Below are positions 23,715 through 43,346 of a DNA stretch of 59,225 nucleotides, one piece after another; the stretch's first letter is position 1; every line of letters begins with the position of its first letter. Source of the DNA: an uncultured Pseudomonadota bacterium. Lineage in GTDB: Bacteria; Myxococcota_A; UBA796; SXON01. A model generated the notes under the pieces. That model was not told the DNA's origin. It did no database searches and was given only the letters and a program-made list of their open reading frames with translations. Position numbers and translations under genes: made by a program. The stretch is from the NCBI GenBank assembly GCA_903844155.1, contig CAIMSU010000294.1:1-59225 (forward strand). The letters run 5' to 3'.

Positions 23715-24346
23715 CTCTCCCCCGCGCCTTCTACGCCCGCGACGCCCTCCTCGTCGCCGAGGACCTGGTCGGCTGCGAGATCATCCACGATGACGTGCGG
23801 GTGCGGATCACCGAGGTCGAGGCGTACCGGAACCCGTTTGGCGCGCCGGTCGACGGGCCGGCAGGCGACACCGCGAACCACGCGCGCAACGGCCGGACGA
23901 AGCGCAACGCGCCGATGTGGGGGCCTGCGGGAAACGCCTACATCTACCTGTGCTATGGCCTGCACCACATGTTGAACGTGGTGACGGGCGAGGACGGCGT
24001 GCCGGAGGCGGTGTTGATCCGCGGTTGCGAGGTGGTCGCTGGCGCTGAAATCGTGCGCGCGCGAAGGGGGCGCGACGACGGGCGCGCGATCCTCGGCCCC
24101 GGCAAGGTCGGGCAGGCGCTCGGGTTGACCACGGCGATGTCGGGGTGTGCGCTGGGCAGTGCTCTCCGCATCGAAGCCGGCCAATCCACGACCACGCTGC
24201 TTCGTCGGCCCCGCGTGGGCATCCCCTACGCCTCGCCGGAACATCAAGCGGCGCCGTGGCGGTTGTCCGCGGGGGTATCAAAAGTGACGTCGTCAGTTTT
24301 CATACATATCAAAAGTGACGTCGTCGGTTTTGAGAGGTCGGGGTGA
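23711..24346 (+). CDS. 3-methyladenine DNA glycosylase (AAG/MPG family) with repeat-derived C-terminal tail
   Basis: This is a 211-residue base-excision repair glycosylase of the eukaryote-like AAG family, which flips and removes alkylated purines. Family signatures are AEDLVGCEI, the catalytic Glu in ITEVEAY (about E37), NGRTKRNAPMWG and YLCYGLHHMLNVV. The family normally ends at the PWR motif, here APWRL (about residue 184). The remaining 26 or so residues are encoded by two copies of a short repeat (24277-24331) and are probably an accretion. Its stop overlaps the GTG of the next gene. Confidence 0.92.
   Translation: MTLPRAFYARDALLVAEDLVGCEIIHDDVRVRITEVEAYRNPFGAPVDGPAGDTANHARNGRTKRNAPMWGPAGNAYIYLCYGLHHMLNVVTGEDGVPEAVLIRGCEVVAGAEIVRARRGRDDGRAILGPGKVGQALGLTTAMSGCALGSALRIEAGQSTTTLLRRPRVGIPYASPEHQAAPWRLSAGVSKVTSSVFIHIKSDVVGFERSG
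24277..24331 (+). repeat. Two copies of a 24-bp REP-like repeat inside the glycosylase reading frame
   Basis: ATCAAAAGTGACGTCGTC followed by A/G and GTTTT occurs at 24277-24300 and 24308-24331, with one difference and a 31-bp period. The central GACGTC is palindromic. A third copy of the core lies at the end of the window on the other strand (59187-59205). The element is therefore dispersed in this genome and has been absorbed into a gene here. Confidence 0.9.
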
Positions 24347-25275
24347 GGGTCGCGGTGACGGGCGGGACGGGGCACCTGGGGGTCAACCTGGTGCGGGCGT
24401 TGGAGGCGCGGGGGGACGAGGTTCGGAACCACCGCGTGGACGTCGCGGACCGGCCAGCGTTGGAACAGTGTTTTGACGGCGTCGAGGTCGTGTTCCACCT
24501 CGCCGCGCTCATCTCCATCACCGGCGACCAGGGCGGGAAGGTCACGGCGACCAACGTCACCGGCGCCGAAAACAGCGCTCGCGCGGCCTACAAAGCCGGC
24601 GTCCGGCGCTTCGTGCACGTCGCCAGCGTGCACGCTTTCGACATGCACCCGCTGGATGCGCCCGTCGACGAGACCCGCGCTCGCGCCTTCGGGCCCCGTC
24701 ACGCCGCCTACGATCGGTCCAAGGCGCTCGGCGAAAAGGCCGTCCGCGCCGTGTTTTCCGAGGGCCTCGACGGCGTCGTCATCCACCCCTCCGGCATCCT
24801 CGGCCCGGCCGACCCGCGCCCCTCCCGAATGGGCCAGTTCTTCCTGGATCTTCAACACCGTCGCATGCCGGCGCTGACCGAGGGCGGCTTTGACTGGGTG
24901 GACGTGCGCGACGTCGTCGACGGGATCCTCGCGGCGGCGGAGCGGGGAAGGGCAGGGGAGAGCTACATCCTCTCGGGGTACTGGCGCTCCGTGCGCGAGC
25001 TTGCCGAGCTGGCAGCGGCGATAACGGGCGTTCCGGCTCCAAAGCTGACGTCACCGATGTGGGCCGCCCGCCTTGGCGCGCCGTTCATGACCGCGTTCAA
25101 TCGCGTCACCGGCATCGAGCCGCTCTACACGTCGGAGGCGCTCGACGCGCTGGAGGCCAACCACGTGCTGTCCCATGCAAAGGCCGCCAGGGAGCTTGGC
25201 TATTCGCCCCGTCCCACGCCGGAGACCGTCCGGGATCTCTACACCTGGTTCGGCGCAAACGGGCGGCTGCGATGA
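24343..25275 (+). CDS. NAD(P)-dependent epimerase/dehydratase (extended SDR)
   Basis: This 310-residue Rossmann enzyme has a cofactor motif TGGTGHLG (residues 6-13) and an active-site YDRSK. The pattern VFHLAA, VASVHAF and VIHPSGILGP is seen in HpnA-like sugar epimerases and in 3-beta-hydroxysteroid dehydrogenase/dihydroflavonol reductase relatives. The GTG start overlaps the glycosylase stop. The stop overlaps the steroid-reductase-like gene (ATGA), so the two enzymes are probably made together and may act on the same lipid or terpenoid substrate. Confidence 0.87.
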   Translation: MRVAVTGGTGHLGVNLVRALEARGDEVRNHRVDVADRPALEQCFDGVEVVFHLAALISITGDQGGKVTATNVTGAENSARAAYKAGVRRFVHVASVHAFDMHPLDAPVDETRARAFGPRHAAYDRSKALGEKAVRAVFSEGLDGVVIHPSGILGPADPRPSRMGQFFLDLQHRRMPALTEGGFDWVDVRDVVDGILAAAERGRAGESYILSGYWRSVRELAELAAAITGVPAPKLTSPMWAARLGAPFMTAFNRVTGIEPLYTSEALDALEANHVLSHAKAARELGYSPRPTPETVRDLYTWFGANGRLR

Positions 25276-26030
25276 CCGAAGCCACCGTCCATGCCGACCT
25301 GGTCGCCATGATGTTCGTGGCCGCGGTGTTCACGGCGTTGTCCGTGCTTGTTGTGACCGCGCCGTACGGCCGGCACGCGCGCGGCGGCTGGGGCCCGCCC
25401 GTGTCCACGCGAACCGGTTGGCTGATCATGGAGGTCCCGGCGATCGCGACCTTCTGCATCGTCTACGCGCTCGGCACACACCGCGCTGAGGCAGGCCCCG
25501 TCGGACTCCTCGCGCTCTGGGTCTGGCACTACGGCTACCGCGGGCTCGTCTACCCGTTCCGGATCAAGGCGGGGCAGAAGCCGATGCCGCTCTCGATCGC
25601 GGCGATGGGCGGCGGGTTCAACGTGTACAACGGCTACCTCAACGCCCGGCAGGTCTCGGAGTTCGGCGTCTACCCGGCGTCCTGGCTGGTCGATCCGCGA
25701 TTCGTCGCCGGCGCGGTGCTTTTCTTCGTCGGCTGGCTCATCAACCAGCATGCCGACGCCGTCCTGCTGGCGCTCCGAAAACCCGGCGAGACGGGTTACA
25801 AAGTCCCGAACGGCGGGCTTTATCGGTGGATCTCCTGCCCGAACTACCTCGGGGAGCTGATCGAGTGGACGGGCTGGGCGTTGGCCTCGTGGTCCTTCGC
25901 GGGCCTCGGCTTTGCGTTGTACACCGCTGCGAACCTCGTTCCGCGGGCTCTGGACCACCATCGCTGGTATCGCCGCGCGTTCCCGGACTACCCGCCGGAG
26001 CGCCGCGCGGTGATCCCGGGGCTGCTTTAG
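25272..26030 (+). CDS. Steroid 5-alpha-reductase-like membrane protein
   Basis: This 252-residue integral membrane protein has several hydrophobic helices (for example about 9-30, 50-75 and 140-160). The C-terminal signature of the SRD5A/steroid-dehydrogenase C domain is SCPNYLGELIEWTGWAL (about residues 189-205), with HHRWYRRAFPDYP near the end. Such enzymes reduce a conjugated C=C with NADPH. Bacterial homologues occur in sterol-producing and in non-sterol lineages, so the substrate is open. It is coupled to the epimerase upstream. Confidence 0.87.
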   Translation: MTEATVHADLVAMMFVAAVFTALSVLVVTAPYGRHARGGWGPPVSTRTGWLIMEVPAIATFCIVYALGTHRAEAGPVGLLALWVWHYGYRGLVYPFRIKAGQKPMPLSIAAMGGGFNVYNGYLNARQVSEFGVYPASWLVDPRFVAGAVLFFVGWLINQHADAVLLALRKPGETGYKVPNGGLYRWISCPNYLGELIEWTGWALASWSFAGLGFALYTAANLVPRALDHHRWYRRAFPDYPPERRAVIPGLL

Positions 26031-26758: not shown

Positions 26759-26775
26759 TTGGCACGCCGCTCGCA
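26759..26775 (+). promoter_or_regulatory. Sigma-54-like -24/-12 promoter sequence
   Basis: TTGGCACG-CCGC-TCGCA matches the RpoN consensus TTGGCACG-N4-TTGCA at all but one position, including the GG and GC pairs at the right spacing. It lies 17 bp upstream of ATG 26792, so transcription would begin only about 5 bases before that codon. The true start may then be further downstream, or the mRNA may be leaderless. A CCTCG...CGAGG inverted repeat lies just upstream, near 26736-26752. Confidence 0.4.
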
Positions 26776-26791
26776 TGACGGGCTGCACCCT

Positions 26792-27826
26792 ATGTCAGGT
26801 TCACCCCCTTCGTCGACCCAGGCGCCGACCCCGGGCCCCGCCCGGTCGAGCCCTGTCGTGCCCGGCGACGTTGCCCGTTGGTTGTTCTGGGTGCAGGCGC
26901 GGCGGGCGATGCCGGCGGCCCATCCCCGCCTGGTGCGAGCGGTGCTGCCGGCCTGGCGGCTGCACGCCCTGGCCTCCGTCGGGGGCGATGGCCCCGCGTT
27001 GCTCGCGGACGAGTACCAGCGCTCGTTTGGCACCATTGGTGACGCGGTCGCGGGCGCTCGGCGGGTCGCGTTCCGGGCGCACTACGAGGAGCTGCTCCTT
27101 GGCCATCTGACCACCCAGAACTGGGCGCGCTACCTCACGTTCCAGGGGCGCGACCACCTCGACGCTGCCCTCGCGAAGAAGAAGGGCGCCATCATCCTTT
27201 TTCCGCACGCCGGAAACTTCATGATGATGATCGCGGCGGTCTCGCTGGCCGGCTACCCCTACACCCAGTACGCCGCACGGGGCCTGGCGCCGCCCGAGGT
27301 CGCCCGCGAACATCCGGAGTTGTTCGGTCATAATTGGTTCCGTGCTGAGACGCGCAAGGCGCGGGAGGCCAGCGAGGACCGGCTGCCGGCCCGGTTCCTG
27401 ACGTTGGAGACACCTCTGCGCCAGCTTTTCCGGCGTCTGGCGGACAACGAGATCGTCGGCATCGCGTTTGACGGCCGCGTCGGCTCGAAATTCATGCGCC
27501 TGCCCTACCTGCGACGACAGGCGCTCTTGAACCCGGGCCCCTACCGGATGGCGATGGCGACGGGCGCGGCCATCGTGCCGACCATGGTGGAATGTCCCCC
27601 ATCGGGGCCCGACATCTGCACGTTCGGCTCGCCGATCTGGCCGGGGACGCACACCGTACGGTCGTTGGCGCAGGCGTCGCTCGCGCCCGTTGAGCGCTGG
27701 CTCCGCGACCATCCGGAGCAATATGGCACGTGGTTGCTGCATTGTCGGCGTCGCAACGCCGTCGATGACCACCCGCTGTTCCTCGACTACGCGCCGGACG
27801 ACCGGTGGAAGCGGCACGACGGATGA
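26792..27826 (+). CDS. LpxL/HtrB-like lysophospholipid acyltransferase family protein lacking the catalytic acid
   Basis: This 344-residue protein is of the bacterial lauroyl-acyltransferase (LPLAT) type. The family fold is recognisable in FPHAGNFMMMIAA (H139 onward), FDGRVGS and the ending WLLHCRRRN. The family's HX4D/E catalytic pair reads H139-AGNF-M144, so the acidic residue that activates the acyl acceptor is replaced by Met. This suggests loss of activity or a changed mechanism. The start at ATG 26792 is the best of several and is not certain. Its stop overlaps the ATG of the fusion enzyme gene (ATGA), indicating tight functional coupling. Confidence 0.8.
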   Translation: MSGSPPSSTQAPTPGPARSSPVVPGDVARWLFWVQARRAMPAAHPRLVRAVLPAWRLHALASVGGDGPALLADEYQRSFGTIGDAVAGARRVAFRAHYEELLLGHLTTQNWARYLTFQGRDHLDAALAKKKGAIILFPHAGNFMMMIAAVSLAGYPYTQYAARGLAPPEVAREHPELFGHNWFRAETRKAREASEDRLPARFLTLETPLRQLFRRLADNEIVGIAFDGRVGSKFMRLPYLRRQALLNPGPYRMAMATGAAIVPTMVECPPSGPDICTFGSPIWPGTHTVRSLAQASLAPVERWLRDHPEQYGTWLLHCRRRNAVDDHPLFLDYAPDDRWKRHDG

Positions 27827-30342
27827 CCACCACCCTCCCGATCGACGCCTACGTCGCCCGCAACGCCGAGGAGAACCCCGATGGCGTCGCGCTGATCGAC
27901 GGCGATCGGGCGATCAGTTGGGCGGCCCTGGACGACACGGTTGGGCGGTTGGCGACGGCCCTGCGCGGGCTCGGGCTGCGGCCCGGCGGCGTCCTCCTCG
28001 CCTTTCCGCAGCGAAGCTGGGAGCTGCCGGTCGTGTTCCTCGCCACGGCGCGCGCGGGCGGTGTTTTCGTCACGATGGACGCCTCCGATCCCGCTCGGAT
28101 CGGCGCCGTTCTCCGGCTGGCCCGGGTTGACGTCGTCTACGCGCCACGGGCCGCGGACGGGGAGGTTGCCCGCGGCCTCGCCCCCAACCCCGAGCGCCTC
28201 ATCGCTGGAGAGTCCGCGATCGACGGGCTGATCGAGGCCACGCCCCTCGCGATGGGCGCGTCCGAGGACGCGACCGTGGTCTGCTACCTGAACATCACGA
28301 GCGGCAGCAGCGGGACTCCGAAGGCGGCGTGCACCACGCACGCCAACATCGTCGCCAACACCGTGGCGGTCCTCGGCGCGTTCCCGTTCACTCGCGAGGA
28401 ACGTTTTCTCTGCTTGTTCGCCGCACACTCACACCCCCACGAACATTTTGTACGTGGGCTCGTGGCCGGCGCGACCTCGGTCATGCTCGACACCTTGCGT
28501 CCCCGCACCGTGATCCGCGCCCTGCAGGATCACCGGGTGAGCTGGCTTTTTGCCATCCCGAGCGTGTTCGAGCTGCTGCTCGCGCAGGTCCAGCCGGGCG
28601 ACAGCTTCCCGGCCCTGCGCTACGGCGAGGCGGGCGGCAGCGTAGTGACCGCCGACCTTGCGCGACGCGTCGAAGCCCGGCTTGGTTGCCGCTTCCTCCC
28701 GATCTGGGGCTGCACCGAGACCACGGGCGTCGTCCTCCACGTGCCACCCTGGGAGGCCGACCGCAGGCTCGATCTGCTCGGCAAGCCCGTGGCACCCTAC
28801 CGGGTCCGCGTGATCGAGGTCGATGCCGCCTCGGGCGTTGGTGAGCTGTGCGTGCACGGCCCCGGCGTCGTGGGCGGGTACCTGGACCCCGCCGACGGGG
28901 CAGGGCGTTTCGAGGACGGCTGGTACCGCACGGGTGACCTCGTCTCCGAGGAAGAAGGCGGGTATCTCCGCTTCATGGGGCGGCGGGAGGAGATGATCAA
29001 GGTCGCTGGCGAAAAGGTCTACCTGCTCGACGTGGAGCGTGTCCTCGCGAGGCTCCCCGGCGTGCGGCAGCTTGTGGTCGTGCCGGCGAGCGACCCCCTC
29101 CGCGGAGAGGTGCCGAGGGCCGTGATCGTCGCCACTCCCGGCAGCGCCCTCACGCGCGCCGACGTGATCGCATGGAGCCGTCGGCACCTGCCCGCCGCCA
29201 TGGTCCCCCGCGTCGTCGAGTTTCGCGACGAGCTGCCGTGCGGGCCCTCCGGCAAGGTGAACAAGCGCGCCGTCGCCGAGCAACGGCCGTGTCCCGTCGC
29301 CATGGCGGTCAACTCCATGCTCATCGCAGAGCGCCCGATAGACGAGGTTTTTCGCCTCGCCGGGGGCGCACGGGAGCCCGGCGGTGCCCCCGTCGTCGTC
29401 GACCTGCGCTCGCGGCGCGATCCCGCGTCCGACCCCGACCGTTCCTGGGCCGTCGCCCATCACAATTCCGACTTTGACATCGGCGATCCCTGCTCCGTCG
29501 CCCGCGCCGTCGCCCTCTCCCGCGCGCACGCCGTCCCGATCGCCATGACCAGCGCGTACATGGGCGCCTGCCTCCCGGGCGACCGCGAGTACGGCCGGCA
29601 CGTCATCGGCATGGCGTATCGCCTCGCGGAGGCGGCTCCAGACGGCACGTTGATCCTCCGCGTGCTGGGGGGCGACCTCTACGCCCGCGCCCGGAGCATG
29701 CCGGGGAGATGGGAGGATATTCGCCGACAGCTCCGCGACGAGAGCCTCGCCACCCTGCGCTACTGGGAGGGCATCGCTCGCGACCAGGGCCGGCGCTGTG
29801 GGCGCCGCGTGATCCTCGGCCTGGAGGTGCACCACGGGCAGTACCTCTCCGACCTCCACGACATCCACCACTGCGCCCGCGGCCTGCGCGATGTCGGCTG
29901 GGACTACGTCGGCTTCATCGACGACCCCGCCAATCGCTTCATCGCGAGCGAGGGCGATCTGCTCGGCGCGCTCGACTTCGCGCGGATGGTCCGGGCGTGG
30001 GGCGGCCGGGTCATCGCGTACCACGTGAAGGACGTGCGGTACCTCTCGACGTGGAACCAGTTCCACCCGCAGCCCATCCAGCGCGTCGGCGAGCGGATCT
30101 TCGTGTGGGGAACGAACAAATACGAGTGGGTCGGGCTGGGCGACGGGGAGGTGGACCTTGCCCAGACGATGATGGCCGCGGAGACCCTCGCTCAGCCGCC
30201 GCACCCGTTCTGCATGGTGTCGACGGAGTACGTCGCAGCGTCGTGCGACGAGGCCGATGCAGCGGCGACGATCGAGAGCTACTCGGCGTTGATCCGGGAG
30301 GGTCGGGTGGTTGTGCGAGAGGCGGGCGCCCGCGTCGCCTGA
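27823..30342 (+). CDS. Fusion of an AMP-forming acyl/aryl ligase with a xylose-isomerase-like TIM barrel
   Basis: This is an 839-residue two-domain enzyme. Residues 1-490 are a complete ANL-superfamily adenylation domain: P-loop TSGSSGTPKA (about 159-168), GCTETTG, YRTGDLV, GRREEMIKVAGEKV and the catalytic Lys K478 in GPSGKVNKR. From about residue 494 a TIM-barrel domain of the AP-endonuclease-2/sugar isomerase type begins, with all expected metal ligands: E668 (LEVHH), D700/D701 (FIDDPAN), H734 (YHVKD) and E802 (STEY). There is no carrier-protein or condensation domain. The first domain probably activates a carboxylate as AMP ester or thioester, and the second would isomerise or cleave a small polar substrate. 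I know of no characterised protein with this order. Confidence 0.88.
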   Translation: MTTTLPIDAYVARNAEENPDGVALIDGDRAISWAALDDTVGRLATALRGLGLRPGGVLLAFPQRSWELPVVFLATARAGGVFVTMDASDPARIGAVLRLARVDVVYAPRAADGEVARGLAPNPERLIAGESAIDGLIEATPLAMGASEDATVVCYLNITSGSSGTPKAACTTHANIVANTVAVLGAFPFTREERFLCLFAAHSHPHEHFVRGLVAGATSVMLDTLRPRTVIRALQDHRVSWLFAIPSVFELLLAQVQPGDSFPALRYGEAGGSVVTADLARRVEARLGCRFLPIWGCTETTGVVLHVPPWEADRRLDLLGKPVAPYRVRVIEVDAASGVGELCVHGPGVVGGYLDPADGAGRFEDGWYRTGDLVSEEEGGYLRFMGRREEMIKVAGEKVYLLDVERVLARLPGVRQLVVVPASDPLRGEVPRAVIVATPGSALTRADVIAWSRRHLPAAMVPRVVEFRDELPCGPSGKVNKRAVAEQRPCPVAMAVNSMLIAERPIDEVFRLAGGAREPGGAPVVVDLRSRRDPASDPDRSWAVAHHNSDFDIGDPCSVARAVALSRAHAVPIAMTSAYMGACLPGDREYGRHVIGMAYRLAEAAPDGTLILRVLGGDLYARARSMPGRWEDIRRQLRDESLATLRYWEGIARDQGRRCGRRVILGLEVHHGQYLSDLHDIHHCARGLRDVGWDYVGFIDDPANRFIASEGDLLGALDFARMVRAWGGRVIAYHVKDVRYLSTWNQFHPQPIQRVGERIFVWGTNKYEWVGLGDGEVDLAQTMMAAETLAQPPHPFCMVSTEYVAASCDEADAAATIESYSALIREGRVVVREAGARVA

Positions 30343-30358
30343 ACGTTACCTTCCGAAG

Positions 30359-30484
30359 GTGGTCCCCCAACCCCCGCTCGTCATCGGCCCCCTTGAGATC
30401 GCCGCGTTTCTGTTGGCGAACGTCATCATCTGCGTCATCTGCGGGCCGAAGCTGCTCGTGGACTGGCGCCGGTGGCGGAGCTGA
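30359..30484 (+). CDS. Putative 41-residue single-pass membrane peptide, TatA-like
   Basis: GTG 30359 opens a short frame that starts 17 bp after the fusion gene. The peptide begins VVPQPPLVIGPLEIAAFLL, has one hydrophobic helix (about residues 11-28), then GPKLL and a basic amphipathic end WRRWRS. A short helix, a GPK hinge and an amphipathic tail resemble the N-terminus of TatA/TatB, but the usual long tail is absent. No strong SD is visible. It may be a membrane anchor for the preceding enzymes, or chance. The coding call rests on composition and position only. Confidence 0.4.
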   Translation: MVPQPPLVIGPLEIAAFLLANVIICVICGPKLLVDWRRWRS

Positions 30485-35806: not shown

Positions 35807-37513
35807 ATGGATCTCCGCCCCTACCTTGACGGCGCCGCCGAGCCGCGCCCGAGATCGCTCGCCGATGCCCTGGACGCCGCCGCTCCCGCCGATCTGGCGG
35901 CCCTGGTCTGGGATCAGCCCACGGCGCAGCTCAGGGACGGCGAGCTGCGCGTGAACGTGTCCAGGCAGGACGCGCGCACGCTGAAGGTCACCACGTCCTG
36001 GGGTGATCAGTCGCTGGACCAGGTCCTCGCGTTGCCCAGCCGTCCGCTGCTCCGCGCCGAATTGCCCGCGGCGCTGGCGGATGGTTCGCGTCCGTTGCAT
36101 CACCGCGAAGGCCGCTGGTATGACGGCCTGCCGGAGCCTCACGCGCAGGGCCGCTGCGACCGGATCGTCCCGGCGCTAACCCCGGAAGACCTCGGCGATC
36201 CCGCATTTCGTGCCGCCCACGGCGTGAAGCGCGCGTACATCGCCGGTGCGATGGCGGGCGGCATCGGCAGCCCCGAGATCGTGATCGCGATGGGAAAGGC
36301 CGGGTACATCGGCTTCTACGGTGCCGGCGGCCTCGATCTTCCGACCGTCGAACAGGCGGTGGTGCGAATCAAGCAGGAGCTTGGCGACCGCCCGTGCGGG
36401 TTCAACCTCCTGCACAATCCCAGCGAGCCGTCCGTGGAAGAAGCCACGGTGGACCTCTATTTGAAGCACGGCGTCCGGACGATCTCTGCGAGCGCCTTCA
36501 TGGGCCTCACGCCCGCGGTCGTCCGGTTTCGCCTGGCGAACCTCCACGAGCGGGACGGCGAGATCGTTGCTCCGAACAAGGTTTTGGCGAAGGTGTCTCG
36601 CACGGAGGTCGCCGAGCCCTTCCTACGGGCCGCGCCTCCGAAGCTTTTGGAGGAGCTGGTCGCGAAGAAGGCGATCACGGCACGGCAGGCCCAGCTCGCC
36701 GCACAGATCCCGATTGCGGAGGACGTCACGCCGGAGGCGGACTCGGGCGGTCACACCGATGGCAGGCCGCTGAGCGTGCTCGTCCCCGTGTTCCGCCGGT
36801 TGCGCGACCGGGTGCAGGCCGAGCAGGAATACGCGGTGCCTCCCCGGATCGGCGCCGCCGGCGGCATCGCTGATCCCGAGTCGCTCGCAGCCGCCCTGAC
36901 GCTCGGCGCCGGGTACGTCCTCACCGGCAGCATCAACCAGTGCACGCAGGAGGCCGGCACCAGCCGGCTCGTCAAGGAGATGCTCGCGCAAGCCGGCTAC
37001 GCGGACGTGGCCAACGGTCCCGCGCCCGACATGTTCGAGATCGGGGCGAAAGTGCAGGTTCTCGCCCGCGGGAGCCTGTACGCGCAACGCGCACAGTTGC
37101 TGTACGAGACCTACCGCGAGCACGCCAGCTGGGACGAGGTCCCGAAGGCGCAGCGCGAAAAGATCGAGAAGCAGATCCTCGGGCGTCGGTTCGAGGACGT
37201 CTGGTCGGACACGCAGCGGTACTGGACCGAGCGCGACCCGCGGGAGGCGACGCGAGCCGAGCAGGACGGCCATCACCGCATGGCGCTTTGCTTCCGCTGG
37301 TACCTTGGAATGACGAGCCGGTGGGCGCGGACGGGCGAGACCAGCCGGAAGCGCGACTACCAGATCTGGTGTGGTCCGGCGATGGGGCTGTTCAATGACT
37401 GGGCGAAGGGCACGGCGTTGGAGGGCTGGGAGTCCCGGACGGTCGTCGGGATCGCGGACGCGCTGATGGAAGGCGCCTGCGGCGTGCTACGGGCGAGGAT
37501 GGCCCTCGGATAG
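35807..37513 (+). CDS. pfaD: PfaD-family flavin enoyl reductase
   Basis: This 568-residue FMN-dependent TIM-barrel enzyme is of the PfaD/trans-acting enoyl reductase type, related to nitronate monooxygenase. Characteristic segments are MAGGIGSPEIVIAMGKAGYIGFYGAGG, NLLHNPSEPSVEE, RIGAAGGIADPESLAAALTLGAGYVLTGSINQ and a long C-terminal part with RRFEDVW and CGPAMGLFNDW. This enzyme normally reduces enoyl intermediates on PUFA synthases or trans-AT polyketide lines. No ketosynthase or acyl-carrier gene is in the window, so its partner must be encoded elsewhere. Confidence 0.93.
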   Translation: MDLRPYLDGAAEPRPRSLADALDAAAPADLAALVWDQPTAQLRDGELRVNVSRQDARTLKVTTSWGDQSLDQVLALPSRPLLRAELPAALADGSRPLHHREGRWYDGLPEPHAQGRCDRIVPALTPEDLGDPAFRAAHGVKRAYIAGAMAGGIGSPEIVIAMGKAGYIGFYGAGGLDLPTVEQAVVRIKQELGDRPCGFNLLHNPSEPSVEEATVDLYLKHGVRTISASAFMGLTPAVVRFRLANLHERDGEIVAPNKVLAKVSRTEVAEPFLRAAPPKLLEELVAKKAITARQAQLAAQIPIAEDVTPEADSGGHTDGRPLSVLVPVFRRLRDRVQAEQEYAVPPRIGAAGGIADPESLAAALTLGAGYVLTGSINQCTQEAGTSRLVKEMLAQAGYADVANGPAPDMFEIGAKVQVLARGSLYAQRAQLLYETYREHASWDEVPKAQREKIEKQILGRRFEDVWSDTQRYWTERDPREATRAEQDGHHRMALCFRWYLGMTSRWARTGETSRKRDYQIWCGPAMGLFNDWAKGTALEGWESRTVVGIADALMEGACGVLRARMALG

Positions 37514-41681: not shown

Positions 41682-43346
41682 ATGTACCACGATTTCCTCA
41701 TCCTCGGCGGCGCTGGGCTGGTTGGCATGCAGGTGTGCCGACACATCGCGCAGGACCTGCGGCCAAGGCGAATCGTGGTCGCTTCGTTGCTGGAGCATGA
41801 GGCGCAGGCGGCATGTGGGAAGTTGGAGGCGGAGTTTCCGGAGGTGAGCTTTGTGCCCGCCTGGGGCAACCTTTTCGTCCCGCGCGACATGGCGCATCTC
41901 TCTCGCGCCGAGATCCTCAACGATGTGCCGATGCGGCGACGGCTGCTGGACGCTGTCTACGAGGATTTTCAGGCGGCCTACGAGCAGAATCACCTCGTGT
42001 TCCTCATCCGGCGCCACCGGCCCGAGGTGATCGTCGACTGCGTGAACACCGCGACGGGCTTCAGCTACCAGGACGTGTTCGACGGTGCGACGAAGGTGCG
42101 GGCGTGGATCGGCGAGACGGGTTTTGACGCCAAGGGCGTGAACGATCTGGAGACGTTCCTGCTCTCCCAGTCGGTGCCCCAGCTCATCCGTCACGTGCTC
42201 TTTCTACACAACGCAACGACCGAATACTCGACTGCGGTGTACGTGAAGGTCGGGACGACGGGCACGGGCGGCATGGGCCTGAACATCCCCTACACGCACA
42301 GCGAGGATCGTCCGTCCAAGAAGCTGCTCGCCAAGAACGAGGCGGCTTTTGGGCACACCGGCCTGCTCTTCCTGCTCGCGCGCACGCCCAACGCGCCGAT
42401 CGTGAAGGAGGTCAAGCCCGCCGCGATGATCGGCTACCGCGGTGTGCAGGTGATGGAGGCGAAGGACCGCTTCGACAATTCCGACTTGTACGCGGCAAAG
42501 ACGCAGGACCTCTCGGCAGGCACGCTCGGTCTGCGCGACGACGCTGCCGGCTACGAGAAGTCCGGGCGCCTGCGCGTGCCCGTGGTCGACACCGGCGAGA
42601 ATGGCGTGTTCACCCGCGGCGAATTCGCGGCCATCACCGCGCTCGGGCAGATGGAGTACATCACCCCCGAGGAGATCGCGCACACGGTGGTGCTGGAGAT
42701 CCGGGGCGCAAACACCGGCCAGGACACGATCTCCGCGCTCGACGGTTCGGTCATGGACCCGAGCTACAAGGCCGGCCTCGTCCGGAACGTGGCGCTGTCC
42801 GACCTCGACGCGGTTGAGCGGGAATGTGGCGTACCGTCGGTCGCGCTCGGTCGCCTCGGCCCTCCAGAGCTCTCCAAGCTGCTCTTCGAAGCGGAGTTGC
42901 TCCGTCGTGCCTGCGGCTCCTTTGACGCGGTAATCGCCGAGAATCCGGCCAAGCTCGCCCAGAAGTGCGCGGACGCGCTGGAGAGCAGCGGGGTGATCCG
43001 CACGGCGCCGTCCATCGGCATCCCGATCCTGATGCCGGACGGGAAGACGCTGCTGCGCGGCCCTCGGATCAACGTGCCTGAGGTGGTCGGGCACAACACC
43101 AGCGTGGCGCTCGGCGATGCGGCGATGGCCGACAAGTGGGCGAAGAAGGGGTGGATCGACCTCCGCGCGGGGAACATGGAGCAGTGGCAGGCGCGGTTCC
43201 GGAAGATGGTGAAGGGGCGGGCGACGCTACGCGAGCTGGGGTCCGCTGCGGCGAGCATCGAGAGCTTCATGGCGACCGGTTTTGAGATCGGCGAGGTTGT
43301 CGCCTGGATCTTCAACAACGAGATGGGCGGGTACCGGCAGAAGTAG
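41682..43346 (+). CDS. Rossmann-fold NAD(P)-binding protein, function unknown
   Basis: This 554-residue cytoplasmic protein starts with a dinucleotide-binding motif LGGAGLVGMQV (residues 8-18), then RIVVASLLEHE and VDCVNTATG. It resembles saccharopine-dehydrogenase-like and short-chain reductase proteins. A TSTAVYVKVGTTGTGGMGLNIP region (about 184-205) and a long C-terminal half with PSIGIPILMPDGKTLLRGP are not typical of a family I can name. No membrane segments are present. The RBS region ahead of the ATG is GGAG at about 41671. Neighbours give no pathway context. Confidence 0.75.
   Translation: MYHDFLILGGAGLVGMQVCRHIAQDLRPRRIVVASLLEHEAQAACGKLEAEFPEVSFVPAWGNLFVPRDMAHLSRAEILNDVPMRRRLLDAVYEDFQAAYEQNHLVFLIRRHRPEVIVDCVNTATGFSYQDVFDGATKVRAWIGETGFDAKGVNDLETFLLSQSVPQLIRHVLFLHNATTEYSTAVYVKVGTTGTGGMGLNIPYTHSEDRPSKKLLAKNEAAFGHTGLLFLLARTPNAPIVKEVKPAAMIGYRGVQVMEAKDRFDNSDLYAAKTQDLSAGTLGLRDDAAGYEKSGRLRVPVVDTGENGVFTRGEFAAITALGQMEYITPEEIAHTVVLEIRGANTGQDTISALDGSVMDPSYKAGLVRNVALSDLDAVERECGVPSVALGRLGPPELSKLLFEAELLRRACGSFDAVIAENPAKLAQKCADALESSGVIRTAPSIGIPILMPDGKTLLRGPRINVPEVVGHNTSVALGDAAMADKWAKKGWIDLRAGNMEQWQARFRKMVKGRATLRELGSAAASIESFMATGFEIGEVVAWIFNNEMGGYRQK

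Follow-up and report, generated by a model that had tools for sequence, protein, structure and literature searches.

An adenylation domain fused to a xylose-isomerase-like barrel and encoded beside a non-canonical LPLAT homologue in uncultured Myxococcota_A bacteria

In petrobactin synthesis, AsbC activates an acid of the dihydroxybenzoate type in trans, and AsbF and AsbC are encoded by separate genes accompanied by a carrier protein and siderophore synthetases. Barrels of the AsbF superfamily can also be joined to another enzyme domain, as in the QuiC1-type protein 5hmq, where the barrel is N-terminal and its partner resembles 4-hydroxyphenylpyruvate dioxygenase. In aryl polyene clusters, the acyl-ACP synthetase ApeH and the LPLAT ApeD occur together, and the acid is anchored to lipid (PMC8253772). 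The locus described here, within a 59,225-nucleotide stretch of DNA from an uncultured bacterium (contig CAIMSU010000294.1; hereafter the window), encodes the same two kinds of enzyme as AsbF and AsbC, fused in one chain, with the barrel placed C-terminally, unlike that of 5hmq, and with an ANL domain as its partner.

The fusion gene occupies positions 27823-30342 on the forward strand as a single frame of 839 amino acids, from an ATG at 27823 to a stop at 30342. Its ANL adenylation domain (27823..29283, residues 1-487) was delimited by Pfam, conserved motifs and Foldseek, and its xylose-isomerase/AP_endonuc_2-like (beta/alpha)8 barrel (29296..30327, residues 492-835) by Pfam, AlphaFold2 and Foldseek. 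Each half matches far past chance. Pfam reports AMP-binding at 4.5e-58 (residues 12-354) and AMP-binding_C at 2e-14 (residues 404-478); AP_endonuc_2 is marginal in the whole protein (5.4e-7, residues 559-743, 30.0 bits against a cut-off of 31.1), while the barrel scanned alone reaches 32.5 bits, above the curated PF01261 cut-off of 31.1, as do the isolated barrels of two homologues, G013 (33.3 bits) and the most distant one, G064 (43.8 bits). The Pfam scan of the fusion protein found no carrier-protein domain after the adenylation domain, which therefore fails as an NRPS-type module, and in the AlphaFold2 model only about five residues, almost no linker, separate the ANL C-terminal subdomain from the first barrel strand. 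A sequence-only reading of this DNA had described a full ANL domain with K478, an intact barrel bearing E668, D700/D701, H734 and E802, and no carrier domain; all these residues are correctly numbered on the ungapped sequence, and the open reading frame is confirmed as a real fusion of an ANL domain and a xylose-isomerase-like barrel. The parts are known kinds of enzyme; their combination is rare and kept in a small clade, and the open-access literature yielded nothing on this architecture.

The ANL half carries the P-loop (TSGSSGTPK, 159-167), A5 (WGCTETTG, 295-302), A7 (D372) and A8 (R387) motifs and the A10 lysine (K478), with both subdomains complete, and the alignments show the core motif residues kept in fused and stand-alone homologues alike. 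Core motifs and both subdomains are shared with the acyl- and aryl-CoA ligases of the superfamily (feruloyl-CoA synthetase 8weu/8wev, MatB, benzoate-CoA ligase, EntE and MenE), its nearest matches by sequence and fold, from which the window's domain differs by its identity of only about 22-30% and by its C-terminal barrel. Its top Foldseek matches (feruloyl-CoA synthetase, MatB, CahJ, EntE and benzoate-CoA ligase) lean weakly towards aryl or small acids, a tendency perhaps owed to the choice of proteins crystallised so far, and NCBIfam equivalogs scored far below their cut-offs where these were shown. The A4 region has an HPHE motif where an aspartate is usual; we considered an amino-acid substrate on this basis and claim nothing from it.

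The barrel was found in five of 71 genomes of the class, namely the window's own, G011, G013, G007 and G064. Four of these belong to one family and G064 to another; G011 and G013 represent a genus other than the window's, and within the window's genus four further genomes lack the fusion. Its presence in five genomes rules out an artefact of a single assembly; in G007, contig ends interrupt the gene, leaving residues 1-629 and 653-830. Across a 379-genome sample of the phylum, the barrel appeared only in those five and in one trivial match, and a second search with the G064 barrel as query had the same outcome; matches in G155 and G321 (E ~1e-4) were short pieces that we judged to be superfamily background. 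Other phyla were covered by exact peptide patterns only, which, over genome contigs, returned just two loci, on contigs of G011 and G013, to which the GenBank MAG contigs JAUXTN and JAUXQH correspond in content. Plasmid records contained no fusion, only ANL matches at about 30-34%, and viral contigs contained none. Wherever the barrel occurred in the genomes searched it was fused (five of five); homologues with the halves in separate genes, which the sequence-only reading had named, along with a lack of conserved neighbours, as evidence against a distinct system, were not found there. Since the fused ANLs form one clade (support 100/99, some branches long) relative to the stand-alone relatives sampled, a single fusion event is likely, and the simplest reading is one fusion, vertical inheritance thereafter, and loss or transfer inside the class.

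The whole-chain AlphaFold2 model (16-row alignment, mean pLDDT 75.9) places eight barrel strands at residues 492-497, 524-528, 573-579, 609-615, 662-668, 696-700, 730-734 and 797-800, with low confidence in the loop 738-778 and a pTM of 0.54, at which the relative placement of the two domains is not fixed. E668 ends strand 5, and strands 6, 7 and 8 have D701, H734 and E802, respectively, at their ends or just beyond, a modelled layout that follows the metal-site pattern of xylose-isomerase-like barrels and marks the four as putative ligands. The motifs E668-x-H670, D701-x2-N704, H734-x-K736 and E802 are invariant in every homologue that covers them; homologues with as little as 49% overall identity still have two complete halves and unchanged catalytic and metal residues. 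Of the D700/D701 pair proposed earlier, D701 is conserved, whereas D700 is a glutamate in two homologues. A Foldseek search with a separate model of the barrel (pLDDT 66.8) placed YcjR, a 3-keto-glucoside 4-epimerase, first (E 6e-8), followed by D-tagatose/psicose 3-epimerases, AsbF (3dx5) and endonuclease IV, with 5hmq also among the matches; the order of these matches does not fix the substrate. Searches against PDB by sequence, alone and as a profile, returned nothing meaningful, and no named NCBIfam family matched the barrel at E<=10. Fold, strand order and the E/D/H/E pattern are thus common to the window's barrel and to YcjR, the D-tagatose 3-epimerase family, IolE, AsbF and endonuclease IV, and what sets it apart is its 10-16% identity to them, D-x2-N in place of D-x2-H, and its position behind an ANL domain. 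The genome that contains the window has no further detectable PF01261 domain, and for this reason the barrel does not resemble a household isomerase domain gone astray.

Such matches invite the proposal that the barrel is an epimerase or isomerase of an acyl-acceptor sugar or cyclitol, with the LPLAT using the acylated product or adding a second chain. YcjR and the ketose 3-epimerases as best fold matches, the complete putative metal site, and the acylation of a sugar-bearing lipid by PF03279 relatives such as PatA are all consistent with it. However, at 10-16% identity a shared fold does not establish the substrate, and no conserved glycosyltransferase, kinase or sugar-nucleotide gene lies beside the fusion. 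We hold this proposal as a tentative one; it is a narrower form both of the explanation that we favour below and of the earlier idea that an activated acid is transferred to, or released from, a sugar- or polyol-like substrate.

Comparison with AsbF suggests a different assignment, in which a 3-dehydroshikimate dehydratase-like barrel would make a dihydroxybenzoate-type acid, the ANL domain activate it and the LPLAT attach it to lipid. The active site of AsbF comprises E142, H144, D172, H175, H198, K200 and E253 (PMC9324987), and six of these seven positions, E142, H144, D172, H198, K200 and E253, have counterparts in the same order in the window's barrel (E668, H670, D701, H734, K736 and E802). 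These were matched to the AsbF/QuiC1 set by motif and order, and it is these counterparts that make the comparison attractive. The presence of AsbF and of the dehydratase-dioxygenase fusion 5hmq among the Foldseek matches adds to it, as does the predominance of aryl-acid enzymes among the proteins that match the ANL half best in fold and sequence, a bias that may be trivial, solved ANL structures being rich in such enzymes. Yet E-x-H and H-x-K are common across the whole barrel superfamily, the position of AsbF H175 is taken by N704, the NCBIfam dehydratase models do not match, and the best Foldseek matches are sugar epimerases rather than AsbF. Because most of the shared residues are superfamily-wide, one position differs and no dehydratase model matches, we did not file the barrel under the dehydratases, and we regard this assignment as unlikely.

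Directly upstream of the fusion, on the same strand, all five genomes carry a PF03279 gene encoding an LPLAT-fold acyltransferase homologue (26759..27826 in the window; Pfam 8.5e-13, 48.6 bits against a cut-off of 22.3), 49-77% identical to the window's. Its stop codon overlaps the start of the fusion as ATGA in the window, G011 and G013, and in G064 about 55 bases lie between the genes. The adjacency of the two genes reported from the window alone extends to the homologues, five adjacencies that come from related genomes and are not five independent events. The same reading had added a downstream membrane peptide to the system; this peptide (57 amino acids, 30311-30484, no Pfam match) lacks a counterpart in the homologous loci, and the LPLAT gene is the only conserved neighbour among the five. 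Genes nearby in the window include Rieske, 5-alpha-reductase-like and epimerase genes; elsewhere there are a PF03601 membrane protein (G013), a sensor kinase (G011) and molybdopterin dehydrogenase genes (G064). At 24343-26030 (+), an NAD-dependent epimerase/3beta-HSD-like gene precedes a 3-oxo-5-alpha-steroid 4-dehydrogenase family gene (PF02544, 6e-51), a pair worth noting in a bacterium. Further along the window lie a PfaD-family enoyl reductase (35807-37513, +; TIGR02814, 609.6 bits) with no ketosynthase recognised beside it, and a predicted protein of 554 amino acids (41682-43346, +) with no Pfam match at 1e-5 and an N-terminus that looks nucleotide-binding by eye. On another contig, G000:C117, one frame scores 1554 bits as a PfaA-like megasynthase. 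We dropped a link between the PfaD gene, 5.5 kb downstream, and the fusion, as it is not beside the fusion in the homologous loci examined. In G007 a FadL/TodX-like outer-membrane channel gene (L049:2922-4292, -) stands directly upstream of the LPLAT-fusion pair, a weak hint at a hydrophobic acid substrate.

The LPLAT homologue also occurs without the fusion. An orthologue in G009, 80% identical to that of G011, is followed by an MBOAT gene, and another in G010 (57-58% identical) stands alone; the LPLAT can thus do without this partner. The surroundings of the G009 gene (L076:7987-10543) resemble those in G011 and G013, and a gene judged by eye to be integrase-like lies further along; a local replacement of the fusion by the MBOAT gene is possible.

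With the late acyltransferases of lipid A, LpxL and LpxM, the window's LPLAT shares the PF03279 profile and not the HX4(D/E) motif, which alignment shows to be lost (H150-AGNF-M in the window, HIGPFM in G064). Given the loss of this canonical acid, it is no ordinary LpxL, and the loss could mean that it is not an acyltransferase. PatA and LpxJ, however, are active LPLATs that do not use HX4(D/E), and a relay of the block I histidine with an acid of block III has been proposed for them (PMC6148475). The window's LPLAT likewise keeps the block I histidine while the canonical relay has diverged; its invariant D238 is a candidate catalytic acid. In sequence it resembles PatA weakly (E 5e-4), and its acid is only proposed.

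A version of this pair without the barrel is found across the order. Most genomes of the order encode a stand-alone ANL protein of about 510 amino acids, 36-44% identical to the window's ANL domain, and those examined adjoin a PF03279 LPLAT; such adjacency recurs in many genomes, and in the alignments the pair members show 36-41% (ANL) and about 27-29% (LPLAT) identity to their counterparts in the window (for example L055:8666-11280, L058:7827-10447 and L054:7807-10558). This LPLAT has the motif HFGANQ, also without the HX4(D/E) acid in the alignment, and no named NCBIfam family at E 1e-20; the neighbours of the pair in several genomes are MoxR-type and DUF58-like genes (both by eye) and transglutaminase genes, or two membrane sulfatase-family genes. 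Because the barrel-less pair is order-wide, the fusion gives the impression that a barrel was joined to an activation and transfer pair already present, and it probably arose once, from or beside that older pair. Acid activation paired with an LPLAT is therefore more widespread than the fusion, and carrier-free in both versions. The earlier suggestion of a candidate undescribed pathway stands in part, in that no split homologue was found in the genomes searched and the LPLAT is kept in all five genomes; it was overstated, because the LPLAT has orthologues without the fusion, the LPLAT-ANL pair occurs order-wide without the barrel, and only two genes are conserved. That related stand-alone ANLs adjoin an LPLAT without any barrel could also be taken to mean that the barrel is structural or catalytically dead and the protein one more acyl-CoA ligase of this order-wide type. 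We think this quite improbable, since the four metal ligands with H670, N704 and K736 are invariant across homologues and, between the window and G011/G013, identity is higher in the barrel half (80-81%) than in the ANL half (63-64%).

For the activation and anchoring of an acid by an ANL enzyme and an LPLAT, aryl polyene clusters offer the nearest functional parallel, without membership. Among the genes scanned in the window and the homologous loci, which are unrelated to such clusters, the fusion has no recognised ketosynthase, dehydratase, carrier-protein or transporter neighbours, and no barrel is listed for the E. coli ape cluster.

The explanation that we favour, at about even confidence, is that the fusion has two enzymatic functions and cooperates with an acyltransferase of its own to modify a cell-envelope lipid. 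Judging from its motifs, the ANL domain would use ATP to activate a carboxylic acid as an acyl-AMP and, since a carrier protein is absent, would probably carry it on to a CoA thioester. The upstream LPLAT, to go by its family, would transfer that acyl group on to a lipid or glycolipid of the membrane by means of H150 and an acid from another block, perhaps D238, in place of HX4(D/E). The barrel's fold and metal site suggest a metal-dependent step of the isomerase, epimerase or dehydratase type on a polyol or sugar partner or on a precursor of the acid, which the fusion would hold where activation happens; making or modifying the acid is as likely a role for the barrel as acting on the partner. 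A more specific version, which we consider possible but doubtful, is a two-gene, carrier-protein-free unit in which the barrel makes or epimerises, and the ANL domain activates, an unusual acid or polyol that the non-canonical LPLAT anchors to an envelope lipid as an undescribed head or tail group.

Gene fusions reveal reactions that go together. Should the barrel feed the ANL domain, one chain would link sugar- or shikimate-type metabolism to lipid acylation and offer a compact handle on an envelope lipid of an uncultured lineage. The fusion further draws attention to an uncharacterised LPLAT-ANL pair that spans the order and in whose acyltransferase the canonical catalytic acid is missing.
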